A stretch of 64,000 nucleotides of DNA from Phycisphaerales bacterium. Its GTDB lineage: Bacteria > Planctomycetota > Phycisphaerae > Tepidisphaerales > Tepidisphaeraceae. The notes beneath the pieces are model-generated. The model was not told the origin of the DNA. It was given only the letters and a program-made list of their open reading frames with translations, and searched no databases. Within the stretch, counting starts at the first letter, position 1. Every line of letters starts with the position of its first letter. The position numbers and the translations under genes were made by a program. This document shows positions 43,842-56,277 of the stretch, piece after piece. The stretch covers positions 1-64,000 of the forward strand of contig JADLBV010000026.1 of NCBI GenBank assembly GCA_020847545.1, written 5' to 3'.

Positions 43842-44993
43842 ATGAAACGCATCGCCTTCATCGTTTTATTGGTTTTAGCGTTTGGCCTGACGCCAATGGC
43901 GTGCAAGCAAAAAAGCGGCCAGCGGGACAATTCGACCGGCGACATACTGATCGGCGAATATGGCTCGATGACCGGCCCAACCGCGACGTTTGGGCAAAGT
44001 TCACACGAAGGGTTGATGCTGGCGATTGAACAGATCAACGCCGAGGGTGGCGTGCTGGGGCGGAAGATCAAGATCATCTCCGAGGACGATCAATCCAAGG
44101 CGGATGAGGCGGTCAACGCGGTGCAAAAGCTGATCAACCGCGACGGCGTGGTGGCGATCATCGGCGAGGTGGCCTCCAAGCGCAGCCTGGCGGCCGGCTC
44201 GGTCTGCCAGAAATACAAAATCCCGATGCTCTCGCCCGCCAGCACCAACCCTGAAGTGACCAAGACCGGCGATTACATCTTCCGCACCTGTTTCACGGAT
44301 GATTTTCAGGGCAAGGTGAACGGCCAATTCGCACTTCGACGCGGCTGGAAAAACGTGGCGATTTTGACGGATGTGAACAACGATTACAGCAAGGGATTGG
44401 CGCACTTTTTCCGCGAGGTGTATGGCAAATCGGGCAACATCGTGGCCGATGAGAGCTATCGCGAGGGGGACAAGGATTTCAAGGCGCAACTGACGAAGAT
44501 CAAGGGGACCAACCCGGACGCGGTCTTTTTGCCGGGGTATTACACGGATGTGGGGCTGATTTTGCGGCAGGCGCGGGTGCTGGGTTTGAATGTCCCCTTT
44601 TTTGGCGGCGATGGGTGGGACAGCCCCGACACGCTGACGTTGGGGGATGTGGTGAATGGGTGTTTTTATTCCAACCATTATTCACCCGAAGACCCCCGAC
44701 CCGAGGTGCAGGCTTTTTTGAAGGCCTATCAGGCCAAATACAACAAAACCCCCGATGCGATGGCGACGCTGGGATATGATGCGGCGAGGGTGATGGCGGA
44801 TGCGATCAAACGGGCGGGCAAGGCCGACCCCAAGGCCATTCGCGACGCATTGGCCCAGACCAGGGATTTTGCCGGCGCCAGCGGCATCATCACCATCGAC
44901 GCCGAACGCAATGCCAAAAAACCCGCGGTCATCCTGGAAATCCGCGACGGCAAAACGCACCTGGTAGACACGATACTCGATACTGGAACCTAG
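43842..44993 (+). CDS. livK: Branched-chain amino-acid ABC transporter binding protein (lipoprotein)
   Basis: 383 residues. Lipoprotein signal with lipobox TPMAC (C21). The mature protein has the LivJ/K fold: GEYGSMTGPTATFGQSSHEG, INAEGGVLGRKIKIISEDDQ, EVASKRSLAAGSVCQKYKIPM and the hinge-side LTKIKGTNPDAVFLPGYYTD. It captures hydrophobic amino acids or related small molecules outside the cell and delivers them to LivHM. First gene of the importer, separated from livH by an inverted repeat. Confidence 0.9.
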   Translation: MKRIAFIVLLVLAFGLTPMACKQKSGQRDNSTGDILIGEYGSMTGPTATFGQSSHEGLMLAIEQINAEGGVLGRKIKIISEDDQSKADEAVNAVQKLINRDGVVAIIGEVASKRSLAAGSVCQKYKIPMLSPASTNPEVTKTGDYIFRTCFTDDFQGKVNGQFALRRGWKNVAILTDVNNDYSKGLAHFFREVYGKSGNIVADESYREGDKDFKAQLTKIKGTNPDAVFLPGYYTDVGLILRQARVLGLNVPFFGGDGWDSPDTLTLGDVVNGCFYSNHYSPEDPRPEVQAFLKAYQAKYNKTPDAMATLGYDAARVMADAIKRAGKADPKAIRDALAQTRDFAGASGIITIDAERNAKKPAVILEIRDGKTHLVDTILDTGT

Positions 44994-45065
44994 AAACTGG
45001 AAACTGGAAACTGGAAGTAATGTATGCCTACCTCTAGTTTCGAGTTTCCAGTCTCCAGTTTCTAG
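44990..45065. repeat. Inverted repeat between livK and livH
   Basis: Left arm 44990-45017 is made of CTGGAAA units (CTAGAAACTGGAAACTGGAA, then ACTGGAAG). Right arm 45034-45065 is complementary with about 3 differences over 28 nt. The left end overlaps the last bases of livK. It could form a hairpin that sets the livK:livHMGF expression ratio, as seen in many binding-protein operons, or be an interspersed repeat. Confidence 0.7.
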
Positions 45066-45068
45066 CCC

Positions 45069-45989
45069 ATGGACCAACTGATTCAGCAATTGATCAACGG
45101 CCTTTCGGTGGGCGCGACCTATGCCCTGATCGCGCTGGGTTACACCATGGTCTATGGCATTTTGCGGCTGATCAATTTTGCGCATGGTGAAGTGTACATG
45201 GTCGGGGCGGTCAGTTCGTATTATCTGGCCGAATGGTCGATGGGGTGGACGCATTCATTGTGGGTCTCTTTGCCGATCGTTGTGGTCGGATCAATGGTCA
45301 CCTGTGCGATATTGGGGTTTTTGATTGAGTTTCTGGCGTATCGGCCGCTGCGCGACCGGCCGCGACTGGTGGTGTTGATCTCGGCCATCGGGGTGTCGCT
45401 GCTGTTGCAGAATCTGGCGCAGTTTCAGGCGATTTTCGGACCGACGCCCAAGCGGTTTCCGGAATTGATCCAAAGCACGCCCGTATTATACAACGCCGCC
45501 CATACCATCGTTTTGACGAACCTGGATATTTTGAGCCTGGGGTTGTCGTTGGGGTTGATGGTCATCATGACCTGGGTGGTGTTGGGGACCAAAACCGGGC
45601 TGGCGTTGCGGGCGGTGTCGTTTCGGTTTGACATCTCTATGCTGATGGGGATCAACACGGGGAAGATCATCTCCTTCACCTTCATGTTCGGCTCGGCATT
45701 GGCTGCGGTGGCGGGGACAATTGATGCGATTCGGTACGATGTGCGGCCATTGATGGGCTTGATGCCGGGATTGAAGGCGTTCGTGGCGGCGGTTTTGGGG
45801 GGCATCGGATCGATCCCCGGCGCGGTGGTGGGAGGGTTGTTGATGGGGTTGTCGGAGACGCTGGTTAAAGGGTATTTGCCCAGCGCCTATACGGGATATG
45901 CGGATGCGGTGGCGTTTGTGGTGTTGATTGTGATTCTGCTGGTGCGGCCGACGGGATTGTTTGGCCGGGTGGCGCCGGAGAAGGTCTGA
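45069..45989 (+). CDS. livH: Branched-chain amino-acid ABC transporter permease LivH
   Basis: 306 residues, about eight transmembrane helices. LivH-type start MDQLIQQLINGLSVGATYALIALGYTMVYGILRLINFAHGE; the segment IGVSLLLQNLAQFQ and the C-terminal RPTGLFGR are also typical. Inner-membrane half of the pore. The upstream repeat leaves it 75 nt from livK. Confidence 0.94.
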   Translation: MDQLIQQLINGLSVGATYALIALGYTMVYGILRLINFAHGEVYMVGAVSSYYLAEWSMGWTHSLWVSLPIVVVGSMVTCAILGFLIEFLAYRPLRDRPRLVVLISAIGVSLLLQNLAQFQAIFGPTPKRFPELIQSTPVLYNAAHTIVLTNLDILSLGLSLGLMVIMTWVVLGTKTGLALRAVSFRFDISMLMGINTGKIISFTFMFGSALAAVAGTIDAIRYDVRPLMGLMPGLKAFVAAVLGGIGSIPGAVVGGLLMGLSETLVKGYLPSAYTGYADAVAFVVLIVILLVRPTGLFGRVAPEKV

Positions 45990-46004
45990 TCGAGGCGGAT
46001 TGGG

Positions 46005-47054
46005 ATGAATGTGAATATGACACCATTTCGCCGATTGCCGACATTGCCGGTGTGGGTGATCAATTCGGCGTTGACGGCCATTCTGGTGGGGCTTTGGCCG
46101 TTGGGGCGGGCGCTGGAACAAAATCTCAATCCGTATTACCTGCAAATTCTGATTCTGGTCGGGATCAACATCATGCTGGCGGTGAGTTTGAATCTGGTGA
46201 ATGGGATCACCGGACAGTTTTCGTTGGGACACGCGGGGTTTATGGCGGTGGGCGCCTATACGGCCGGCGTGTTGTTGAGGCATTACCAGCCGGAAGGAGG
46301 GGCCATTGTGCCGGCCATGCTGGGGGTGCTGATTCTCGGTGGATTGCTGGCGGCGGCGGCGGGGTTGATCGTGGGGATTCCGACATTGCGGTTGCAGGGG
46401 GATTACCTGGCCATCGCGACGCTGGGGTTTGGTGAGATCATCAACGTGGTCATCATCAACACCGAATCGGTGGGCCCGTTTTATGTCGGTGGGTCGGCCG
46501 GTTTGCATGGGATTCCGATCTATGCCAATTTTTTCTGGACGTTTGGAGCGGCGTTGTTTTGTGTCGTTTGTGTCTGGCGGCTGGCCTATTCCAACAAGGG
46601 AAAGGCGTTCGCGGCCATTCGCGAGGATGAGATCGCGGCCGGGGCGATGGGGGTCAATACAACCTATTACAAGGTGGCGGCGTTTGTGATCGGGGCGTTT
46701 TTTGCCGGGGTGGCCGGGGGCGTTTCGGCGACATGGTTCGGCAATCTCGACCCCGAATCGTTCCGGTTCATGCGATCCATCGAAATCGTGGCGATGGTGG
46801 TGTTGGGGGGGAGCGGATCGATCACCGGGGCGATTGTGGCGGCAATTTTGCTGACGTGGCTTCCTGAACAATTGCGGGCGGTGCAGGAATGGCGGCTGGT
46901 GATTTACGCGCTGGTGCTGATTTTGATGATGATTTTCCGGCCGGCCGGGCTGCTGGGCAATCGCGAACTGTGGCCGGTACCGGGAAGACGAAAGCCCGCG
47001 CCGCCGGCGACGAGCGACCCGGATTCGCGTCAGCGGATGATGGCCGAGGGATGA
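46005..47054 (+). CDS. livM: Branched-chain amino-acid ABC transporter permease LivM
   Basis: 349 residues. Family blocks: ILVGINIMLAVSLNLVNGITGQFSLGHAGFMAVGAY, TLRLQGDYLAIATLGFGEII, AIREDEIAAGAMGVNTTYYK, and FRPAGLLG near the end. It pairs with LivH. It starts 15 nt after livH. Confidence 0.94.
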   Translation: MNVNMTPFRRLPTLPVWVINSALTAILVGLWPLGRALEQNLNPYYLQILILVGINIMLAVSLNLVNGITGQFSLGHAGFMAVGAYTAGVLLRHYQPEGGAIVPAMLGVLILGGLLAAAAGLIVGIPTLRLQGDYLAIATLGFGEIINVVIINTESVGPFYVGGSAGLHGIPIYANFFWTFGAALFCVVCVWRLAYSNKGKAFAAIREDEIAAGAMGVNTTYYKVAAFVIGAFFAGVAGGVSATWFGNLDPESFRFMRSIEIVAMVVLGGSGSITGAIVAAILLTWLPEQLRAVQEWRLVIYALVLILMMIFRPAGLLGNRELWPVPGRRKPAPPATSDPDSRQRMMAEG

Positions 47055-47068
47055 AATTGACATAGACG

Positions 47069-47833
47069 ATGGCGCTGCTTGAGATTTCCAATTTGTCGGT
47101 GGTGTTTGGCGGATTGAAGGCGCTGTGCGATTTTGATTTGTCGCTGGAACAGGGGGAACTGGTGGGGTTGATCGGCCCCAACGGAGCGGGCAAGACCACG
47201 ACTTTCAACATCGTCACGGGGGTGTATCGCCCCGCCGCCGGCGGTGTGCGGCTGGGGGGGCGGTCGATTGCGGGATTGAATCCGTACCAGATCAACCACC
47301 GTGGGATCGCGCGGACATTCCAGAATATCCGGTTGTTTGCCGGCATGAGCGTGCTGGACAATGTGCTGGTGGGATTTAATCAGTCATTGCGCCATGGATT
47401 TGTCGGCACGGTGTTGCGCACGCCCCGCCACCAGCGCGAAGACAAGCGCAATCAGGATCGGGCGATGGAGTTGCTGGCCAAATTGGGATTGGACGACCGG
47501 GCGATGGAGACGGCCCACAACCTGCCCTATGGCGACCAACGACGACTGGAAATCGCGCGGGCGCTGGCGACCAATCCCAAAATCCTGCTGCTGGATGAGC
47601 CGGCGGCGGGGATGAACCCACAGGAAAAGATCGAACTGGCCGCCATGATCGAGATGATCCGCACGCAGTTTCGGGTGGGGATCTGGCTGATCGAACATGA
47701 TATGAAACTGGTGATGTCGATTTGCCAGCGAATCACGGTGCTGGATCATGGGCAAACCATCGCGGTCGGCACACCTGATCAGGTGCGGGCCGATCCGCGC
47801 GTCTGCGAGGCGTATCTTGGAGAGCCGACATGA
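47069..47833 (+). CDS. livG: Branched-chain amino-acid ABC transporter ATPase LivG
   Basis: 254 residues. Walker A GPNGAGKTT (about 37-45), family-specific GIARTFQNIRLFAGMSVLDNVLVG, signature-like LPYGDQRRLEIARAL and Walker B ILLLDEPAAGMNP. ATPase subunit on the cytoplasmic side. Overlaps livF by 4 nt. Confidence 0.95.
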   Translation: MALLEISNLSVVFGGLKALCDFDLSLEQGELVGLIGPNGAGKTTTFNIVTGVYRPAAGGVRLGGRSIAGLNPYQINHRGIARTFQNIRLFAGMSVLDNVLVGFNQSLRHGFVGTVLRTPRHQREDKRNQDRAMELLAKLGLDDRAMETAHNLPYGDQRRLEIARALATNPKILLLDEPAAGMNPQEKIELAAMIEMIRTQFRVGIWLIEHDMKLVMSICQRITVLDHGQTIAVGTPDQVRADPRVCEAYLGEPT

Positions 47834-48558
47834 GCCAGACGCCGACCACGCTATTGTCGGTGGATCATCTGTCGGTTGCCTATGGGGCGATTCGCGCCTT
47901 GCGCGATGTGTCGCTGCGGATTCAGGCCGGCGAGATCGTGACACTGATCGGTTCCAACGGCGCGGGAAAGACGACACTGCTGCGGACGATTTCCGGCCTG
48001 TTGCGGCCGACCGATGGGACGATCCGGTGCAATGGGGACGATCTTCACACGCTGGCCCCGCATCGAATCGTGCGCAAGGGCATTTGTCATGTGCCCGAAG
48101 GGAGGCAAATTTTTGCCAATTTGAGTGTTCGCGAAAACCTGATCTTAGGTGCTTATTCATTGCCGCACGACAAGGCCGCACAGAAATCGGCAATGGAGCG
48201 GGTGTATGAGTTTTTTCCGATTCTGGCCGAACGAAGACACCAGAATGCCGGCACGCTCTCCGGCGGCGAGCAGCAGATGCTCGCCATCGGGCGGGCGCTG
48301 ATGGGCAAACCAAAACTGTTGCTGCTGGATGAGCCTTCGCTGGGTCTGGCGCCGTTGATCGTCCGCAAGATTTTTCAGATCATTCGTGAGATCAATGCGC
48401 AGGGGACGACCATTTTTTTGGTCGAACAAAACGCCCACATGGCGCTGATCACCGCGCATCGCGGATATGTTCTGCAATCGGGAGAAGTGCAACTCTCCGG
48501 CTCGGCGGCCCAATTGCTGGATGATCCGCAAGTCAAACAAGCCTATCTGGGCGGATGA
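47830..48558 (+). CDS. livF: Branched-chain amino-acid ABC transporter ATPase LivF
   Basis: 242 residues. Walker A GSNGAGKTT, GICHVPEGRQIFANLSVRENL (LivF hallmark), signature LSGGEQQMLAIGRAL, Walker B LLLLDEPSLGLAP, and the H-loop region TIFLVEQNAHMAL. Ends 25 nt from the convergent E2-like gene of the ubiquitin-like operon. Confidence 0.95.
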   Translation: MSQTPTTLLSVDHLSVAYGAIRALRDVSLRIQAGEIVTLIGSNGAGKTTLLRTISGLLRPTDGTIRCNGDDLHTLAPHRIVRKGICHVPEGRQIFANLSVRENLILGAYSLPHDKAAQKSAMERVYEFFPILAERRHQNAGTLSGGEQQMLAIGRALMGKPKLLLLDEPSLGLAPLIVRKIFQIIREINAQGTTIFLVEQNAHMALITAHRGYVLQSGEVQLSGSAAQLLDDPQVKQAYLGG

Positions 48559-48583: not shown

Positions 48584-49201
48584 TCATAATGAGGGTGGGT
48601 GCAAATTGGCAGGGTCGATGGGCAATTCGGCCGTGTGAAGATCGGCCCACATGGCGGCCTCCCCATCGAGCGGGCTGCGGATGTTGTATGCCTGATAGGC
48701 GATCATCTCGCCGATGCGGATGACCAGGTCCACCAGCCGTTCGCCGGCGGTCCAGTGATCGCCCACGCAGATGGTGGCCGGGTCGATGTTGGGATGAAAA
48801 ATGGGGGTGAGCATCCGGCATTTGGGGGCTAGTCGCGGGTAATCGGCGGTCAATTGAATTTCCACCTCGTGGCGGTCGCGCCGGGCCGGTTTGCCATCCG
48901 TGGCGCGATCAAGCCCCCAGACACGATACGCGATGCGATACAGATCGGGTGGATCGCCTTGGGTGTGGATGATTTTGATCGCGGGAAAATCCGCAAACGC
49001 ATGGGCGATCTGCTGGGCGTCGGCCGTCAAACGACGATATCGTACGCCGGGCTTGGCGACGGGCGCTGGATCAGATACAGATTTTGTGGCCGTGGGGACG
49101 GTGATTGTGGCCCCGCAACCTTTGCACTTGGCGGATCGCCCGGCATAGGCATCGGGGACGCTGAAAGATTTACCGCAACCTGTACAAGCAAACTCAATCA
49201 T
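48584..49201 (-). CDS. E2-like (UBC-fold) conjugating enzyme with N-terminal zinc ribbon
   Basis: 205 residues from ATG 49201. Residues 1-35 are a zinc ribbon (C6, C9, C26, C29). Residues about 55-190 read as a UBC fold. YPRLAPKCRMLTPIFHPNI (121-139) contains the HPN triad (H136-P137-N138). ICVGDHW follows with C145 at the thioester-cysteine position, seven residues after the HPN asparagine as in eukaryotic E2s, then the helix LVDLVIRIGEMIAYQAYN. It would accept a ubiquitin-like protein from the E1 and transfer it to targets. Last gene of the minus-strand operon, 21 nt after the FHA/RING gene. No ribosome site is visible, so translation may depend on the upstream genes. Confidence 0.85.
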   Translation of the reverse strand: MIEFACTGCGKSFSVPDAYAGRSAKCKGCGATITVPTATKSVSDPAPVAKPGVRYRRLTADAQQIAHAFADFPAIKIIHTQGDPPDLYRIAYRVWGLDRATDGKPARRDRHEVEIQLTADYPRLAPKCRMLTPIFHPNIDPATICVGDHWTAGERLVDLVIRIGEMIAYQAYNIRSPLDGEAAMWADLHTAELPIDPANLHPPSL

Positions 49202-49222: not shown

Positions 49223-50158
49223 TTACCGCATCGACCACAATGGACGGCGCAGCCAGAACGAATAAGAAAACACGATCCCCGCCGCCAAGCCAACCAATGA
49301 GACCAGCAACGCGCCGGCCGCCAGTTTTCGATGTTGGCGCGTGCGAACGAGATATATTCCGTCAATCAAGCTCGTGACCAGCGCGGTCAGGCCAAATGTG
49401 AACATCCCCAGCACGGCGGCGAATAGACTCGATGCCAGCAACAACAAAGGCCAATGGTGTTGCGCGTTGGTGGGCGCATCATCCTCGACGGCTTGTGATA
49501 TGGGCGCTGTATCTTCCGGCCCACCCAATATGTCCACCTGATCGCATCCATAGGCCGCACATCCCCGGTTTTCGGCCCAGCAATCCGCATGATAAATATG
49601 TTTGCAGGATGGACAGGAGGTGGTTTTTTCACCGGACAAAATGACGCACTGACAAATACTGCAAGCGGCTTGGCCGGCCGATGCGACCACGGGTTTGGGT
49701 TGTATGACGGATTGTGGAATCCGCACCGATCTCCCGCAATGCAGGCATCTTCCCTTTGATCTGGCGTGATTGGGGCTGACCCACAACGGCGCGCCACACT
49801 CGCAATTGAAGAGCGTACCGGCAGACTCGGCCGAATCTTTACGATCCAGTGTCAACATCCCTTCGGGCAATTGGTCGCTGAGATGGAAGGTGATCCGCGT
49901 CGGGCCGATTTCGATCTGATCCCCATCGGCCAGTGGTTGTCGGCCGGTGGCTGATTTTCCATTCAGTTTGACACCAGTGCGCGAAGAATTATCGGCGACA
50001 TAAAACCGATCCTTGTCGCCATCAAACCACGCATGGATTCGCGACACCGCGACATCGTTGATGATGATGTCATTGGTCAACCGCCGACCCACCAGCAACC
50101 GGCCTTCCAACCGGCAGCCAACCTGACCATCGTGTTGTTGAATGATGAGCGTCGGCAT
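49223..50158 (-). CDS. FHA + zinc ribbon + RING-like + membrane protein (candidate E3)
   Basis: 311 residues from ATG 50158. FHA domain at 1-95 (GRRLTNDIIINDVAVSRIHA with S39, R40, H42; then NSSRTGVKLNG). Zinc ribbon C119/C121/C138/C141. A binuclear treble-clef RING-like domain has C166, C169, C182, C185, H190, C193, C200 and C205 (spacing Cx2C-x12-Cx2C-x4-Hx2C-x6-Cx4C), close to the prokaryotic RING family. Two transmembrane helices follow near 236-262 and 280-302. In a ubiquitin-like pathway such a protein would hold an E2 and a phosphorylated partner at the membrane. It follows the polytopic FHA gene with a 5-nt gap. Confidence 0.82.
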   Translation of the reverse strand: MPTLIIQQHDGQVGCRLEGRLLVGRRLTNDIIINDVAVSRIHAWFDGDKDRFYVADNSSRTGVKLNGKSATGRQPLADGDQIEIGPTRITFHLSDQLPEGMLTLDRKDSAESAGTLFNCECGAPLWVSPNHARSKGRCLHCGRSVRIPQSVIQPKPVVASAGQAACSICQCVILSGEKTTSCPSCKHIYHADCWAENRGCAAYGCDQVDILGGPEDTAPISQAVEDDAPTNAQHHWPLLLLASSLFAAVLGMFTFGLTALVTSLIDGIYLVRTRQHRKLAAGALLVSLVGLAAGIVFSYSFWLRRPLWSMR

Positions 50159-50163
50159 GATCT

Positions 50164-51432
50164 TCAACCAGCGGCCGCGGCCTTTGGTTTTTCCTGGAAT
50201 GTGAAGGTGGTGGCGCCGATCTGGATGCGGTCGTTGTTGCGCAGCCGTGTCCGCTGGACCGGCCGGCCATTGATCAGCGTCTGTCCGCCCAGCGGCAAAT
50301 CCTCGATCTCATACCCGCCGGGAACAATGTGGACGGCCGCATGACGACGCCCCACCTGCGGGTCTTTGAACAGATAAATCGCGCATTGAAGCGATGATCC
50401 GATGTAAGTTGGATTGCGATAAAGGACAAACTGTTTTCCGGCGATCAGCCCGGCGCTGACCTTCAACCAGCCGGATTTGACGACATTTTCGATCAATCCC
50501 GTGCCGAATCCCGCGATCGCGCCGATCATCACCACCCCCACCAGCCGCGACAAATGGGCATTGCCGGTATTGACGGCGATGAACTCATATAGCACGCCAC
50601 CCACCACTCCGCCGACCAACCCGCCCACCATGCCGACGAAAAATTTTCGCCCGTTTCGCATCACCAGCCCCGGCGCGATGCTCAAAAACAATCCCAACAC
50701 CGCCCACGACCCCGCGCGGGCCAATATTTGTCTGGTTTGGGTGGCGATGGCCGGATCCCCTTCGATGTATCGAAACACCCGATCCACACAAAACGCCGCC
50801 GCGATGCCGCCGGCCAGCCCCAAAATCGCCCCCACCGATCCATTGATAATCGCGGCCTGCGCGTTGCGCTGAACCATCGCCTCGGCCATCGCCAGACACA
50901 TGGCGATCATCATCCCGGCGATGGAATAAAACAGAACATTGGCGACAAATTCATCCCATTCCTCACCCGCGGCCACTTGTGCCCGGCGTTGCCCCTTTTC
51001 AATTTCCGACAATGAACGATTGGCCTCAATCGCGTAATACGGATTGTTTTGAGCGACGCGGTCAATCTGCAAGATCGCCGCATCCGCCTGAGATTCGGTT
51101 AGCCGGCCGTCGTTGCGGTCCTGTAGAATCTGCCGACGTGCGTCGATCCATTCGCGCGCCTCGGTGCGGGCGTTTGGCCTAAAATGCAACACCTCGCCGC
51201 ACGCCCACCCCAACATCCCACCCAACAGACCAAACAACGTCATGTAGACCAGCGTGTTGTACCAAAGACCCGCCGATGCACGGGCCGGCTGAGGATGGTC
51301 CGCCACCGGCAGCATCTGCAATTCCTGGCTGGCACCGGCCAATGCCTCCTGCTGGCGCAATTTCTCATCGATACGCGGGTTGTTGATCTCATCCCACGAA
51401 ATGGTCATGGGTTGGTCATTAGAACTTAACAT
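50164..51432 (-). CDS. Polytopic membrane protein with C-terminal FHA domain
   Basis: 422 residues from ATG 51432, overlapping the JAB gene end by 7 nt; the frame continues to 51504. An N-terminal cytoplasmic part (1-56) is followed by a helix at about 57-83, a long charged helical loop (85-160), and then about five hydrophobic glycine-rich helices (165-185, 195-215, 240-258, 264-285, 296-315). The FHA domain is at about 333-415 (YIGSSLQCAIYLFKDPQVGRRHAAVHIV, INGRPVQRTRLRNNDRIQIG) and binds phosphothreonine. Likely scaffold bringing the conjugation machinery to phosphorylated proteins at the membrane. Inferred from context. Confidence 0.8.
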   Translation of the reverse strand: MLSSNDQPMTISWDEINNPRIDEKLRQQEALAGASQELQMLPVADHPQPARASAGLWYNTLVYMTLFGLLGGMLGWACGEVLHFRPNARTEAREWIDARRQILQDRNDGRLTESQADAAILQIDRVAQNNPYYAIEANRSLSEIEKGQRRAQVAAGEEWDEFVANVLFYSIAGMMIAMCLAMAEAMVQRNAQAAIINGSVGAILGLAGGIAAAFCVDRVFRYIEGDPAIATQTRQILARAGSWAVLGLFLSIAPGLVMRNGRKFFVGMVGGLVGGVVGGVLYEFIAVNTGNAHLSRLVGVVMIGAIAGFGTGLIENVVKSGWLKVSAGLIAGKQFVLYRNPTYIGSSLQCAIYLFKDPQVGRRHAAVHIVPGGYEIEDLPLGGQTLINGRPVQRTRLRNNDRIQIGATTFTFQEKPKAAAAG

Positions 51433-52175
51433 AATCGCACCCAAGATTTCTGTAGTTCGATCAACAAAGCGGATTGATTGCCACCCATCCAAAACAACAT
51501 CCAAAGCGTCCAGGCGATCAGCGCCAGCACCAGCAGCAGAATCAGTATGACAATGTAAATGCCCATCTTCCCGCCCAGTGGCTTGGAATCGACCACCGGT
51601 GTTACAGGCACTGGTTGTTCTCCAGCAGGTTTATCGGATTGAACAAGAAATGCCTTGCGGACCGGTTTGCCATCATCCCAGACAAACGACCCTTCATCCC
51701 CCCCCAGCGGGTCATACACAAACGCCACCTGCCAGGGGAGATCAAAAAAACTTTGGTGAATGAAAAGGTCCATCCCCGACAGGAAGATGCCAAACCCCGG
51801 ATGGGTGTGATACCACCCGACGATTTTGCGATCCGGATAGAGGCGGTCCATCTCCGCCTGAATGTGCGTCCAAGTCTCGGCCGTGAAGGTGACATTGGCG
51901 CTGGCGCTGGTGGCGTTTTCGCCTCGAATACACGCTTCAACGTGCAGATACGGCCCCGCATCATCCCGACACGGCATCCCAACCAATACGCCGCACACCT
52001 CCGCATCACGGCTGGACTGGCCGTGAGTGTGAATTTCATCCAGCACCGATTGGCGCATGATGGCCTGAAATTCCCCCTTTCGACGCCCAGCCACTTCCGG
52101 CAAGGCACGAAAGTCGAATTGAGTAGAATCCAGCGCGGCCGGGCCGCTGTTTTGGGATGGAGAATTCAGGTCCAC
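51426..52175 (-). CDS. JAB1/MPN (JAMM) metalloprotease with C-terminal transmembrane helix
   Basis: 249 residues from GTG 52175, supported by AGGAGG 8 nt upstream. JAMM motif complete: E59 (AEVCGVLVG), H123-x-H125-x10-D136 in GWYHTHPGFGIFLSGMD, the zinc-site pattern of deubiquitinase-like isopeptidases. Residues 204-231 form one transmembrane helix (MGIYIVILILLLVLALIAW), anchoring the enzyme with the catalytic domain in the cytoplasm. It would trim the ubiquitin-like protein or remove it from targets. Overlaps the E1-like gene by 10 nt and the FHA gene by 7 nt. Confidence 0.88.
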   Translation of the reverse strand: MDLNSPSQNSGPAALDSTQFDFRALPEVAGRRKGEFQAIMRQSVLDEIHTHGQSSRDAEVCGVLVGMPCRDDAGPYLHVEACIRGENATSASANVTFTAETWTHIQAEMDRLYPDRKIVGWYHTHPGFGIFLSGMDLFIHQSFFDLPWQVAFVYDPLGGDEGSFVWDDGKPVRKAFLVQSDKPAGEQPVPVTPVVDSKPLGGKMGIYIVILILLLVLALIAWTLWMLFWMGGNQSALLIELQKSWVRLC

Positions 52176-53404
52176 TGCAAATCCTCCTGCCCACCATGCA
52201 AAGACCCCAGCACCGCCTGGGCATCGCCTGACAATTCCAAACCAATCGCCCGATCCGCGGTGCGGGCGATGAGACTATCAAATGGGGGAATCCCGATTAG
52301 TGCGGGCGTGCGGCCTAAAAAATCCTCCTCGCCGGTCATTTTGTAAAACGTCCGCACCTGACGCTTGGTATCCGCACATCGCGGACACGCCGCCCGGTCG
52401 GCCGAGATTCGCCCCAATGATGCGAATATCTGCTCCTCATCGCCGCAATTCGGGCATACCAGTTTTTCAAGAATGTCCCGCCCCAGCTCAAGTTGCGCCC
52501 GCGAGCCAAGATGCTGCCGCGCGATCTCCAGCAATTTTGCCAGTGTGATCGTGTTGGCCGTCTCCTCCAGCGTCACCACCGACTCCAATGGATCATGGCT
52601 CAGACAATCGGCCTTACGCTGATATTCCACTTGATAAGAATCGGTGGATAATCCCGCAAAATTCCAACCCCGCCCCCCGATCGTCTCCATGCCATGAATG
52701 ATCTTCAGCGCCTCCTGACATTGCACGCCGGCGATGATTGAACTGATCGTCGGCGTCGTCGGCGTTTTACCCCCTTGCATCTCCTGTTGAGACAGGAGGT
52801 TGCATGAACGCCTGCTTTGCAGCAGTTTCCAATCGGTCTGCGACATCGTGCATTCATAGCACGGCCCATCGGGCACAAAAACACGCGCCACACCCTGAAT
52901 CTGCTCAATCGCCCCATCAATCCAGGGTTTATTCAGCTTGTAACAGGCCCGGTTGATCGCCAGTCGTGCTTCGCGGTTGTCCAACCCGCCAATCACGACA
53001 TCCGCCCAGCGATAGACCCCCAGCCCCAGATCATGCACCACATTGCCATCAAAATGGTTGACGCGCATGGCGGGGTACAAATCCCGCGCCGCCGTCGCCG
53101 CCACTTGTGCCTTGGATTTGCCATTGTCGGCGGCACGATAGAGCACCGAGCGGGACAAATTGGAATTTTCGATCCGATCCAGGTCCGCAATCAGCAAATT
53201 TCCGATACCCAGCAACGCCAGATTCTTGATGATCTCATTGCCCAGCGCCCCGGCGCCGATGACCAGCACCTTGGCTTGGGAGAGTTTTTCCTGATCCCAC
53301 CATGAGATCAGGCGAAATCGATCAAACCGATCCTCCTCCACCGAAACCTTGAGGATCGGTTCATCCGATTGTTCGTTTTGGAATGACGTATTGGAGCGGG
53401 TCAT
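52166..53404 (-). CDS. E1-like (ThiF/MoeB-fold) ubiquitin-like-protein activating enzyme
   Basis: 412 residues from ATG 53404 (the frame reaches 53476 inside the Ubl gene). Adenylation domain: GAGALGNE at 50-57, ATP/Mg residues D74 and D76 with N82 and R85 (LIADLDRIENSNLSRS), K96/K98 and D142. Zn cysteines C182 and C185 (GPCYEC). C201, in RRSCNLL before the helix SSIIAGVQCQEALK, is the best candidate for a thioester cysteine. A C-terminal extension of about 130 residues carries a second zinc site (C317, C320, C340, C343). It would adenylate the Ubl C terminus and pass it to E2. Starts 7 nt after the Ubl stop. Confidence 0.87.
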   Translation of the reverse strand: MTRSNTSFQNEQSDEPILKVSVEEDRFDRFRLISWWDQEKLSQAKVLVIGAGALGNEIIKNLALLGIGNLLIADLDRIENSNLSRSVLYRAADNGKSKAQVAATAARDLYPAMRVNHFDGNVVHDLGLGVYRWADVVIGGLDNREARLAINRACYKLNKPWIDGAIEQIQGVARVFVPDGPCYECTMSQTDWKLLQSRRSCNLLSQQEMQGGKTPTTPTISSIIAGVQCQEALKIIHGMETIGGRGWNFAGLSTDSYQVEYQRKADCLSHDPLESVVTLEETANTITLAKLLEIARQHLGSRAQLELGRDILEKLVCPNCGDEEQIFASLGRISADRAACPRCADTKRQVRTFYKMTGEEDFLGRTPALIGIPPFDSLIARTADRAIGLELSGDAQAVLGSLHGGQEDLQWT

Positions 53405-53411
53405 GGATGAT

Positions 53412-53681
53412 TCATCCGGCCGTAATTTCAGGTTGCAACCGCAGCACATCCCCTTCTTTGACGCCGATTTCCGCAAGGGTCTGATGATCCAGCAATTGTT
53501 TGCCGGTGGCGCGATGATGAAACTTATAGCTCAAGATTTGACCATCAGGCCCATATTGCGGAAAATTCATCTTTTCCAGCAACACCGCCAGGATTCGGTT
53601 GACCGGCGCATCGTCCGGCATCTGCACCTGCTGGCGTTTGTTGCCGGTGGCGTCCCAAATCTGGACGGTCAACATGCCCAT
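53412..53681 (-). CDS. Ubiquitin-like (beta-grasp) protein
   Basis: 89 residues with a strong AGGAG 8 nt before ATG 53681. The order of strands fits a beta-grasp fold: LTVQIWDATGNKRQQVQM, helix NRILAVLLEKMNF, SYKFHHRATGKQLLDHQTLAEIGVKEGDVLRLQP. The last part (LADLGVxxGDxLxL pattern) is the hallmark of ubiquitin-like and YukD-like proteins. The C terminus is PEITAG: a single terminal Gly preceded by Ala, not GG. First gene of the operon, followed by E1, JAB, FHA, FHA/RING and E2 genes, so it is the likely conjugated modifier. Confidence 0.84.
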   Translation of the reverse strand: MGMLTVQIWDATGNKRQQVQMPDDAPVNRILAVLLEKMNFPQYGPDGQILSYKFHHRATGKQLLDHQTLAEIGVKEGDVLRLQPEITAG

Positions 53682-54093: not shown

Positions 54094-56277
54094 ATGCAAA
54101 AGAATAAACAAGCATTGACGTTGTATGAGCCAAGGACATTGGCCGTACCCCCCGCGCCCGAACCGGTGTCGCATGATGCCATGGTGCAGATCATCTGGCG
54201 GCAGCGCCGGGTGGTCATGGTCGCATTGGCGGCAAGTCTGCTGATTGGCGCGCTCTATCTGGTGACGGCCAAACGCCTCTACACCGGCGAATCGAGGCTT
54301 TATGTCGAGCAATCCGGGCCGAAGCTGATCAAGGATGGGGAAACCCGCGTTTCCGAGAATTACCTCAACACACAGTGCGAATTGATCAATTCCACGCCTA
54401 TTTTGGCGCTGGCATTGTCAACGCCGGAAGTTCGGGCGATTCCTTCACTGGAAAAGATCAACACGGTCTGGCTGAAAAAAGAGTTATTGGTTGAACCAGG
54501 CAAGCATGATGACATCATCACGGTGTCGTTGGAACTACCCGATGCGGTGGGCGCTTCGACTTTGGTGAACGCCATCGTCAACTCCTATGTGACTTATCAG
54601 ACCAACCACCGACGCGACACCGCCAACGAGGCGTTGGCGATCCTGTCGGCCGAGAAACAAAAACGTGACGAGGAGCTGCAAGCCAAGGTTCATCAGTTGT
54701 TTGAACTCAAGGAATCGGCCGGCACGCTCTCATTTGACAATGACCGCGGCAATCCGATCCTGCAACGACTGGCAAGTCTTTCTGAAGCCCTGACGGCCGC
54801 ACGAATGGAGACCGTCAACGCCAAGTCCGATTACGAGGAAGCCCGCCGCATCCTGGGCAACGACCCGGAAAAGCTCAAGCAGGTGGAACACCAGCAGAAC
54901 TTGAGCGGCGTGGCTGTGGCATCGGTCGCCGAGGCCAATCTCATCCGAAGCCAGCTCTTCGCGATGCAGCAGCAGTTGGAAGACCTCAAACGGCAATACA
55001 TGCCCGAACATCCGCTGGTCCGCACGCAGCAACTGCGGGTGGATCAACTGACCGTGGCGTATGTCGCGGCCGCCTATCAACGCTGGAATACATCCAAATT
55101 GCGTGAGGAGAGCCTGCAACAGGCCTTTGACGCCCAGCAGAAACTCGCGTTGGAACAATCCACCAAGGCGGCGCAATACGCCCGCCTGGATGCGGAAGTG
55201 AAACGCCTGCAACAGGTTTCCGACGGTCTGGAGACGCGCATGCGGGAACTGAGCCTGCAAGGCGCTTCGGTCCTCGATATCAACGTCCTGGAGACCGCCC
55301 ACCCCGATACGCACGCCACCAGCCCCAACATCATGCGGGTGCTGGTGCTGGCGCTGGTGGTGGGTCTGGTGCTGGGGATCATCAGCGCGTTCATTCGCGA
55401 CTGGATGGATCAGCGGATGCGGTCGCTGGATGAGGTGAAGGCGACATTGGGCATGCCGGTGCTTGGAACCGTACCGCAGATGCCGGGGGTTTTGTCACCC
55501 CAGATGCGTGGCACGCGCGTGCAACTGGAACCGACATCGGATGTGGCCGAGGCGTATCGCAACATTCGCACGGCCGTCTATTTCGGTCTGACCGAAGGTC
55601 GAGCCAAGACGGTGCTGATCACCTCCCCCTCCGCCGGCGACGGCAAGTCCACGCTGGCCAGCAACCTCGCCATCGCCATGGCGCAGGCGGGCCAGCGCGT
55701 GCTGCTGATCGATGCCGATTTCCGCGATCCGACGCAGCACAAGACGTTTGAAGTGGATGATGCCGTGGGCCTCTCCAGCGTGTTGTGCGCCGGTTTCAGC
55801 ATCGACAAGGCCACGCGGCCAACCGCCGTCAGCGGGCTTGATCTGCTGCCGTGCGGCCCGATCCCGCGCAACCCTTCGGAAATTCTCAACAGCCAGGGTT
55901 TCAACGACATCTTGGGCGATCTGGCGGCGAAGTATGACCAGATTCTGCTCGACAGCCCGCCGGTGTTGGCGGTGACGGATGCCCGCATCGCCAGCGCCGC
56001 CTGCGAAGTGACACTGCTGGTGCTGAACGCGGAAAGGTCCAGCCGCAAGACGGCCGAACTGGCCCGCGACAGCCTGTTGGCGGTGGGCGCCAACATCCTG
56101 GGCATCGTTGTCAACGATGTTCCCCAGAATGGCAACGGAGAAGGATTTCACAGCAAATATGGTTACTACGGTCATGCCGACGCCAAGGACAATGACCGTT
56201 CATCCGGCGCGGTGCGCCAGATACAGAAAAGTTTTAGTGGATTGAAACTGGTGAACCAGTCCGGCGGACGCGCCTGA
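54094..56277 (+). CDS. Polysaccharide co-polymerase / BY-family tyrosine kinase (Wzc-like)
   Basis: 727 residues. Wzz-type N-terminal domain with transmembrane helix at about 46-64 (VMVALAASLLIGALYLV), long coiled-coil region (about 200-400) and a second helix near 412-432. Cytosolic kinase: Walker A SAGDGKST (513-520, K518), Walker A' LLIDADFRD (D540, D542), Walker B QILLDSPP (D620). A small tyrosine cluster, YGYYGH (689-694), is available for autophosphorylation. It controls export and chain length of the exopolysaccharide. First gene of the plus-strand cluster. Confidence 0.93.
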   Translation: MQKNKQALTLYEPRTLAVPPAPEPVSHDAMVQIIWRQRRVVMVALAASLLIGALYLVTAKRLYTGESRLYVEQSGPKLIKDGETRVSENYLNTQCELINSTPILALALSTPEVRAIPSLEKINTVWLKKELLVEPGKHDDIITVSLELPDAVGASTLVNAIVNSYVTYQTNHRRDTANEALAILSAEKQKRDEELQAKVHQLFELKESAGTLSFDNDRGNPILQRLASLSEALTAARMETVNAKSDYEEARRILGNDPEKLKQVEHQQNLSGVAVASVAEANLIRSQLFAMQQQLEDLKRQYMPEHPLVRTQQLRVDQLTVAYVAAAYQRWNTSKLREESLQQAFDAQQKLALEQSTKAAQYARLDAEVKRLQQVSDGLETRMRELSLQGASVLDINVLETAHPDTHATSPNIMRVLVLALVVGLVLGIISAFIRDWMDQRMRSLDEVKATLGMPVLGTVPQMPGVLSPQMRGTRVQLEPTSDVAEAYRNIRTAVYFGLTEGRAKTVLITSPSAGDGKSTLASNLAIAMAQAGQRVLLIDADFRDPTQHKTFEVDDAVGLSSVLCAGFSIDKATRPTAVSGLDLLPCGPIPRNPSEILNSQGFNDILGDLAAKYDQILLDSPPVLAVTDARIASAACEVTLLVLNAERSSRKTAELARDSLLAVGANILGIVVNDVPQNGNGEGFHSKYGYYGHADAKDNDRSSGAVRQIQKSFSGLKLVNQSGGRA

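Follow-up and report, generated by a model that had tools for sequence, protein, structure and literature searches.

A putative FHA-RING ligase component of a ubiquitin-like operon in a planctomycete bacterium

The operon and its FHA-RING protein

The stretch of DNA analysed here (the window, 64,000 nucleotides) contains a six-gene operon encoding, in order, a ubiquitin-like modifier (Ubl), an E1, a JAB peptidase, a membrane protein with an FHA domain, an FHA-RING protein and an E2, with all genes on the minus strand; neighbouring genes overlap or lie apart by a few bases to about 20. The YukD/ubiquitin-like modifier (53412..53681; Pfam YukD, 9.8e-10) has 89 amino acids and the C-terminal residues PEITAG, and a sequence resembling a ribosome-binding site (AAGGAGA) lies upstream of its gene. 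An invariant Ala-Gly, in place of Gly-Gly, is found at the same site of the Ubl in every operon examined. In many of them it forms the C terminus itself, and in many others it precedes a short, varied tail; relatives have TAG, VAG or DAG at this site, with the tail optional. The simplest reading of these sequences is that the mature Ubl would end in Ala-Gly, uncovered by the JAB peptidase where a tail is present.

The E1 (52166..53404; likely ATG start at 53404, in a reading frame listed from 53476) is of the ThiF type (Pfam ThiF, 1.7e-53), with a single ThiF domain and an RRSC motif whose Cys is invariant in 19/19 alignment rows; the closest named record, from a Phycisphaerales MAG, is 76% identical. 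It is followed by a JAB/JAMM peptidase with a C-terminal membrane helix (51426..52175; Pfam JAB, 5e-12; helix at residues 206-224) and by a polytopic membrane protein with a C-terminal FHA domain (50164..51432; likely ATG start at 51432). In the window's family the phosphothreonine site of this FHA is degenerate, with Gly-Ser for Gly-Arg and GRRHA for SRxHA, and thus only one of the two FHA domains in the operon is a likely phospho-reader. The last gene, directly downstream of FHA-RING as originally predicted, encodes a 205-residue E2 of the UBC type (48584..49201; Pfam UQ_con, 4.9e-9) with an N-terminal zinc ribbon, an HPN motif and the catalytic Cys145, the motif and Cys being invariant in 18/18 alignment rows. 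Scans of the operon for promoters and terminators gave results no better than shuffles. Judged by eye from translations, the flanking plus-strand genes encode a branched-chain amino-acid-type ABC transporter (an operon at 43842-48558) and a Wzc-like polysaccharide protein (54094-56277).

The fifth gene (49223..50158, including the stop) encodes a protein of 311 amino acids, a candidate E3 comprising an FHA domain, a zinc ribbon, a C4HC3 RING-type finger and a membrane region. The reading frame lies where the original prediction, which did not give the strand, had placed it, and runs on the minus strand from an ATG at 50158 to a stop at 49223; an alternative TTG start at 50167 would add three residues. 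Comparison with the same-genus copy (L035) gave a dN/dS of 0.13 overall, 0.09 in the FHA domain and 0.21 in the RING, indicating a real gene under constraint. The observation of a real, constrained and well placed FHA-RING gene is therefore confirmed.

The N-terminal FHA domain that had been proposed is clearly present (residues 3-95, 49874..50152; Pfam FHA, 5.4e-13), and its site is canonical for phosphothreonine, with Gly-Arg, Ser-x2-His and the following Asp-Ser loop (G24, R25, S39 and H42 kept). Among orthologs, G24, S39 and H42 are conserved in 18/18 aligned sequences and S59 in 16/18, while R25, followed in the alignment by eye, is lost in L044. The full-length model, built from a 7-row alignment, has low confidence in the FHA region, to which the nearest solved structures are nevertheless FHA domains; the nearest solved FHA sequences are those of GarA/OdhI. 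Between FHA and RING lies a zinc ribbon that had gone unnoticed (residues 117-148, 49715..49810), of the form CxC...CxxC with C119, C121, C138 and C141, of which C121 and C138 are present in 18/18 orthologs and C141 in 17/18. This small ribbon resembles that of the E2 (49085-49201). The C terminus is hydrophobic (residues 235-303, 49250..49456), with two segments identified by hydropathy (238-256 and 279-297) and two helices in the model (236-271 and 277-309). The expected membrane anchor was thus found, although the proposed number of two membrane helices is a minimum, since the helix 236-271 could span the membrane twice, giving two or three passes in all.

The RING-type finger

The finger occupies residues 164-207 (49538..49669), and all eight ligands proposed for it are in place, with the spacing C166-x2-C169-x12-C182-x2-C185-x4-H190-x2-C193-x6-C200-x4-C205. 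The window, translated in six frames, contains this pattern a single time; it came up once in 200,000 shuffles of the FHA-RING protein and not at all in 6.4 Mb of codon-shuffled window, and its near absence from shuffles argues against a chance arrangement. Similarity searches of genomes from the window's family yielded 20 further complete RINGs, and 20/20 keep the eight ligands; among the more distant relatives included, one RING has Asp at ligand 2 (L037:12395). In an alignment of 25 RINGs the ligands are the only invariant columns, but the rows of this alignment were selected by a regular expression for the ligands, so that the independent evidence comes from the set found by similarity. 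An alternative assignment as RING-H2, in which H187 would be one of the ligands, was suggested by the alignment to zf-RING_2 and was rejected: H187 occurs only in the window and L035, and its lack of conservation indicates that the original choice of C182 and C185 was correct.

The Pfam family Prok-RING_1 (PF14446) matches 25/25 aligned fingers, all with E values of 0.01 or better and the best at 1.1e-13, compared to 14/25 for PHD (PF00628; best E 3.3e-5) and likewise 14/25 for zf-RING_2. The window protein scores 19.4 bits against Prok-RING_1 and its isolated domain 25.2 bits, just below the curated cut-off of 29.1, and the finger has both the C4HC3 ligand set with the spacing of this family and its typical neighbourhood of Ubl, E1, E2 and JAB genes. 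The C4-x4-H5 spacing is PHD-like, while C7-x4-C8 is that of neither a textbook RING nor a textbook PHD; the C7-x2-C8 spacing of PHD fingers and their conserved aromatic residue two before C7 were not found in the 25-row alignment, where this residue varies. In sequence searches, PHD chains and RING chains scored about equally weakly.

Modelled by itself, the finger has a core of good confidence (pLDDT 86-91), and its structural neighbours are mainly cross-brace domains, namely RING/U-box and PHD. The best VIA neighbour is the Slx1 RING (Z 5.2, 52 residues, rmsd 2.4), a middling score that supports the fold class but does not prove it; Foldseek with this model gave no match below E 0.001, and PHD chains were among its top rows. 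Together with the Prok-RING_1 matches in 25/25 relatives, these predicted neighbours point to a binuclear finger of RING type, as had been suggested. The two unrelated zinc knuckles considered as the opposing outcome were not seen at the level of these profile and fold comparisons.

Gene context suggests that the finger works with the E2 of the operon, while the evidence from individual residues is mixed. I168, between ligands 1 and 2, provides the hydrophobic residue expected at an E2 contact, and most family members have I or V here. However, the linchpin Arg/Lys after ligand 8 is absent, the window having D206 followed by Q and the relatives in the 25-row alignment varied residues (D, S, P and others), and the loop-4 and loop-7 contacts of eukaryotic E2s (F; P-A/S) are not kept in the window E2, which has YPR and W-T-A-G, with R in the place of the loop-4 F and A-G in that of the loop-7 P-A/S. 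In the E2 alignment P69 is invariant and R70 and A99 nearly so. If FHA-RING is an E3, its interface with the E2 would therefore appear to have diverged. No natural RING-E2 fusion was found. The E1/E2/srfp RING cascade of Caldiarchaeum subterraneum, which is encoded in an operon with Ub, E1, E2 and RING and has been reconstituted (PMC5654768), offers a useful comparison: it shares with the window the operon content and the hydrophobic residue between C1 and C2, where the archaeal I30, the counterpart of I168, is essential for activity (PMC5654768). In contrast to the window protein, its small RING keeps the linchpin Arg (R69) and its E2 keeps P-Y/P-S, and no FHA or membrane anchor is described for it (PMC5654768).

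Distribution and relation to known systems

Orthologs of the FHA-RING protein are present in most searched genomes of the window's family, and the order Ubl-E1-JAB-TMFHA-(FHA)RING-E2 is found at nearly all same-family loci with enough flanking contig. At greater distance, operons of planctomycete families (f27, f31, f42, f64, f69 and f86), Acidobacteriaceae MAGs and one Opitutia MAG preserve this order as far as their contigs reach and have RINGs without FHA. In several of these the position ahead of the E2 is taken by two or three RING genes, and in most operons with conserved order a RING gene directly precedes the E2. Of the loci fetched, only some from the window's family encode FHA and RING as a single protein, and even there L057 has a RING gene without FHA. 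The fusion to FHA thus looks like an addition specific to this lineage, made to a RING that was probably in the operon earlier.

Other arrangements were also observed. RING proteins that adjoin the E2 carry a trypsin/HtrA-like protease region, recognised by eye, at L060, L063-L067, L069, L137, L138, L143 and L155-L157, a form of the operon that couples RING, protease and E2. Divergent operons with the order RING-E1-E2-Ubl-JAB, in which the Ubl ends in DAG plus a tail, are present at L152, L153 and L154 (G072, G075 and G108), and G083, G190 and G245 (L146-L148) have an E2 of the same type in whose vicinity neither E1 nor Ubl, JAB or RING was detected.

Among 294 genomes of the phylum, a RING was detected in 25/32 E2-positive compared to 14/262 E2-negative genomes (Fisher p 3e-20); the profile used was itself derived from operon RINGs, and the genomes share ancestry and are not independent. 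By family the figures are 14/18 and 6/84 (p 1.5e-9), with the total of 102 families taken from the highest family label shown.

Eukaryotic E3 ligases that combine FHA and RING include RNF8 and CHFR, both soluble nuclear proteins with canonical RINGs. In RNF8 an N-terminal FHA reads phosphothreonine and places the C-terminal RING E3 (PMC3705210); the window protein shares this plan of FHA plus RING, although RNF8 and CHFR are not known to have a zinc ribbon or a membrane anchor, and the likeness is one of plan. As FHA-RING was confined, at the loci examined, to a single planctomycete family, its distribution suggests that the fusion arose independently of RNF8 and CHFR. Also closely comparable are the operon RINGs of Prok-RING_1, which have the same finger family, a YukD-like Ubl/E1/E2/JAB neighbourhood and an occurrence in Planctomycetes and Acidobacteria, and whose Pfam entry includes a C-terminal membrane segment; to these the window adds an FHA and a zinc ribbon at the N terminus, and its operon includes a further FHA protein, which lies in the membrane. 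As early as 2011, RINGs were described as components of bacterial Ubl operons (Burroughs, Iyer and Aravind 2011, Mol BioSyst 7:2261, as cited in PMC4197634 and PMC7159879), related ubiquitylation operons are mentioned in Actinobacteria, Planctomycetes and Acidobacteria (PMC4197634, citing Burroughs 2011), and RING-type E3s are named as components of prokaryotic Ubl operons in a paper from 2020 (PMC7159879). With these RINGs described in 2011 and eukaryotic FHA-RING ligases known (RNF8, PMC3705210), the novelty first attributed to the fusion was overstated: the kind of operon is already known, and the fusion of a phospho-reading FHA to the RING is its less usual part.

The Ubl, E1, E2 and JAB set is shared with the Bil (BilABCD) and Bub operons, whose four-gene sets, as described, are without a RING component. 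Bil comprises BilA (Ubl), BilB (E2), BilC (JAB) and BilD, an E1 with two adenylation domains, whereas the window E1 has one ThiF domain; in PADLOC the window Ubl and E2 matched no model and the E1 matched BilD weakly (5.6e-9).

Possible function and wider significance

We consider it likely that FHA-RING, anchored in the membrane, acts as an E3 guided by phosphothreonine and directs a Ubl with an Ala-Gly end to phosphorylated proteins. The E1 would adenylate the terminal Ala-Gly of the Ubl, take the Ubl onto its own Cys and pass it to the E2 at Cys145, and the RING-type finger of the anchored protein would hold the charged E2 (E2~Ubl) beside the membrane. The FHA domain would recruit proteins that have been threonine-phosphorylated by one of the cell's Ser/Thr kinases (six protein kinases are encoded in the genome, none in the operon), and the Ubl would be transferred to their lysines; the membrane-tethered JAB would trim tailed Ubl precursors and could also remove the tag. 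Of this scheme, the genes and their constant order, the conserved catalytic, zinc-binding and FHA-site residues and the membrane segments are observed; we infer E2 binding, E3 activity, phospho-dependence, lysine targets and JAB trimming from the sequences and their context. A proteasome search of the genome gave one match, to a family that also matches in E. coli and B. subtilis and may therefore represent HslV, so that it is uninformative on the degradation of tagged proteins. Several points count against the E3 reading, namely the absent linchpin, the altered E2 contacts and the PHD-like spacing. In addition, similar fingers occur in 14/262 E2-negative genomes and on unrelated domains such as a GntR regulator, and thus the fold alone is no proof of an E3. 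The lack of FHA in the L057 RING and in other lineages also speaks against a phospho-guided ligase.

In a rather doubtful alternative, the finger is a PHD-like or general docking zinc module, the protein a phosphothreonine-reading membrane scaffold for the Ubl machinery, and the E2 acts without an E3, as in Bil. The C4-x4-H5 spacing, PHD matches as frequent as those of zf-RING_2, PHD chains in the top Foldseek rows, the missing linchpin and canonical E2 contacts and the presence of such fingers in non-Ub contexts would all fit a docking module. However, Prok-RING_1 matches every aligned finger and has a far better best E value than PHD, the C7-x4-C8 spacing and the lack of a conserved aromatic residue two before C7 are unlike PHD, and the strict placement beside the E2 and co-occurrence with it also count against this reading. 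It is very improbable that the operon is instead a sulfur-carrier or cofactor pathway with the finger as an accessory and no protein tagging; the E1 does resemble ThiF/MoeB, but the same operon encodes an E2 with a catalytic Cys, a JAB, a YukD-type Ubl and a RING, and has no cofactor genes, and this reading of the E1 was rejected on operon content.

It is also possible, if on the unlikely side, that the RING is an E3 but that the FHA binds a phosphorylated partner from the operon (the membrane FHA protein, the JAB or the RING protein itself) and serves only to assemble or switch the complex. Such a role would suit an operon that has two FHA proteins, one with a degenerate site, and no kinase, as well as the similarity to GarA/OdhI, since in bacterial FHA proteins of this kind the FHA serves regulatory, including internal, phospho-switching. 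There is no direct counterpoint to it; it differs from the phospho-guided ligase solely at the FHA step, and both roles fit.

Fingers of the Prok-RING_1 type are expanded in some planctomycetes. In families f36 (G229, G201, G242, G172, G215, G077 and G187), f69 (G122) and f95 (G265) they number 27-80 per genome at E 1e-5, the counts in the largest genomes being lower bounds as not all candidates were scored, and they are scattered over the genome with varied partner regions (examples at L092-L111), including a GntR regulator and, judged by eye, a Ser/Thr-kinase-like region. Nine of ten such proteins scanned match Prok-RING_1, six of them over the cut-off. Both E1 and E2 are present in 8/9 finger-rich genomes, usually as one set (two in G122), and at the loci read these form a compact E1-Ubl-E2 set with no RING adjoining, except for one of the two G122 sets. 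No E1 or E2 was found in the draft genome G172 (89% complete), which has 58 fingers. We tentatively suggest that planctomycete Ubl systems might have acquired, in the course of evolution, a range of E3s like that of eukaryotes, with one E1/E2/Ubl/JAB and many RINGs with differing readers, of which the window FHA-RING would be a phospho-guided branch. This expansion may be weightier than the FHA-RING fusion itself.

To our knowledge, no RING E3 belonging to an endogenous bacterial Ubl pathway has been demonstrated to act. The sole prokaryotic RING cascade reconstituted in the literature covered is archaeal (PMC5654768). The operon provides a compact set (Ubl, E1, E2 and FHA-RING) for asking whether bacteria tag proteins upon phosphorylation, and if the expanded RINGs are real E3s, the layout of one E1 and many E3s would have arisen in bacteria too.
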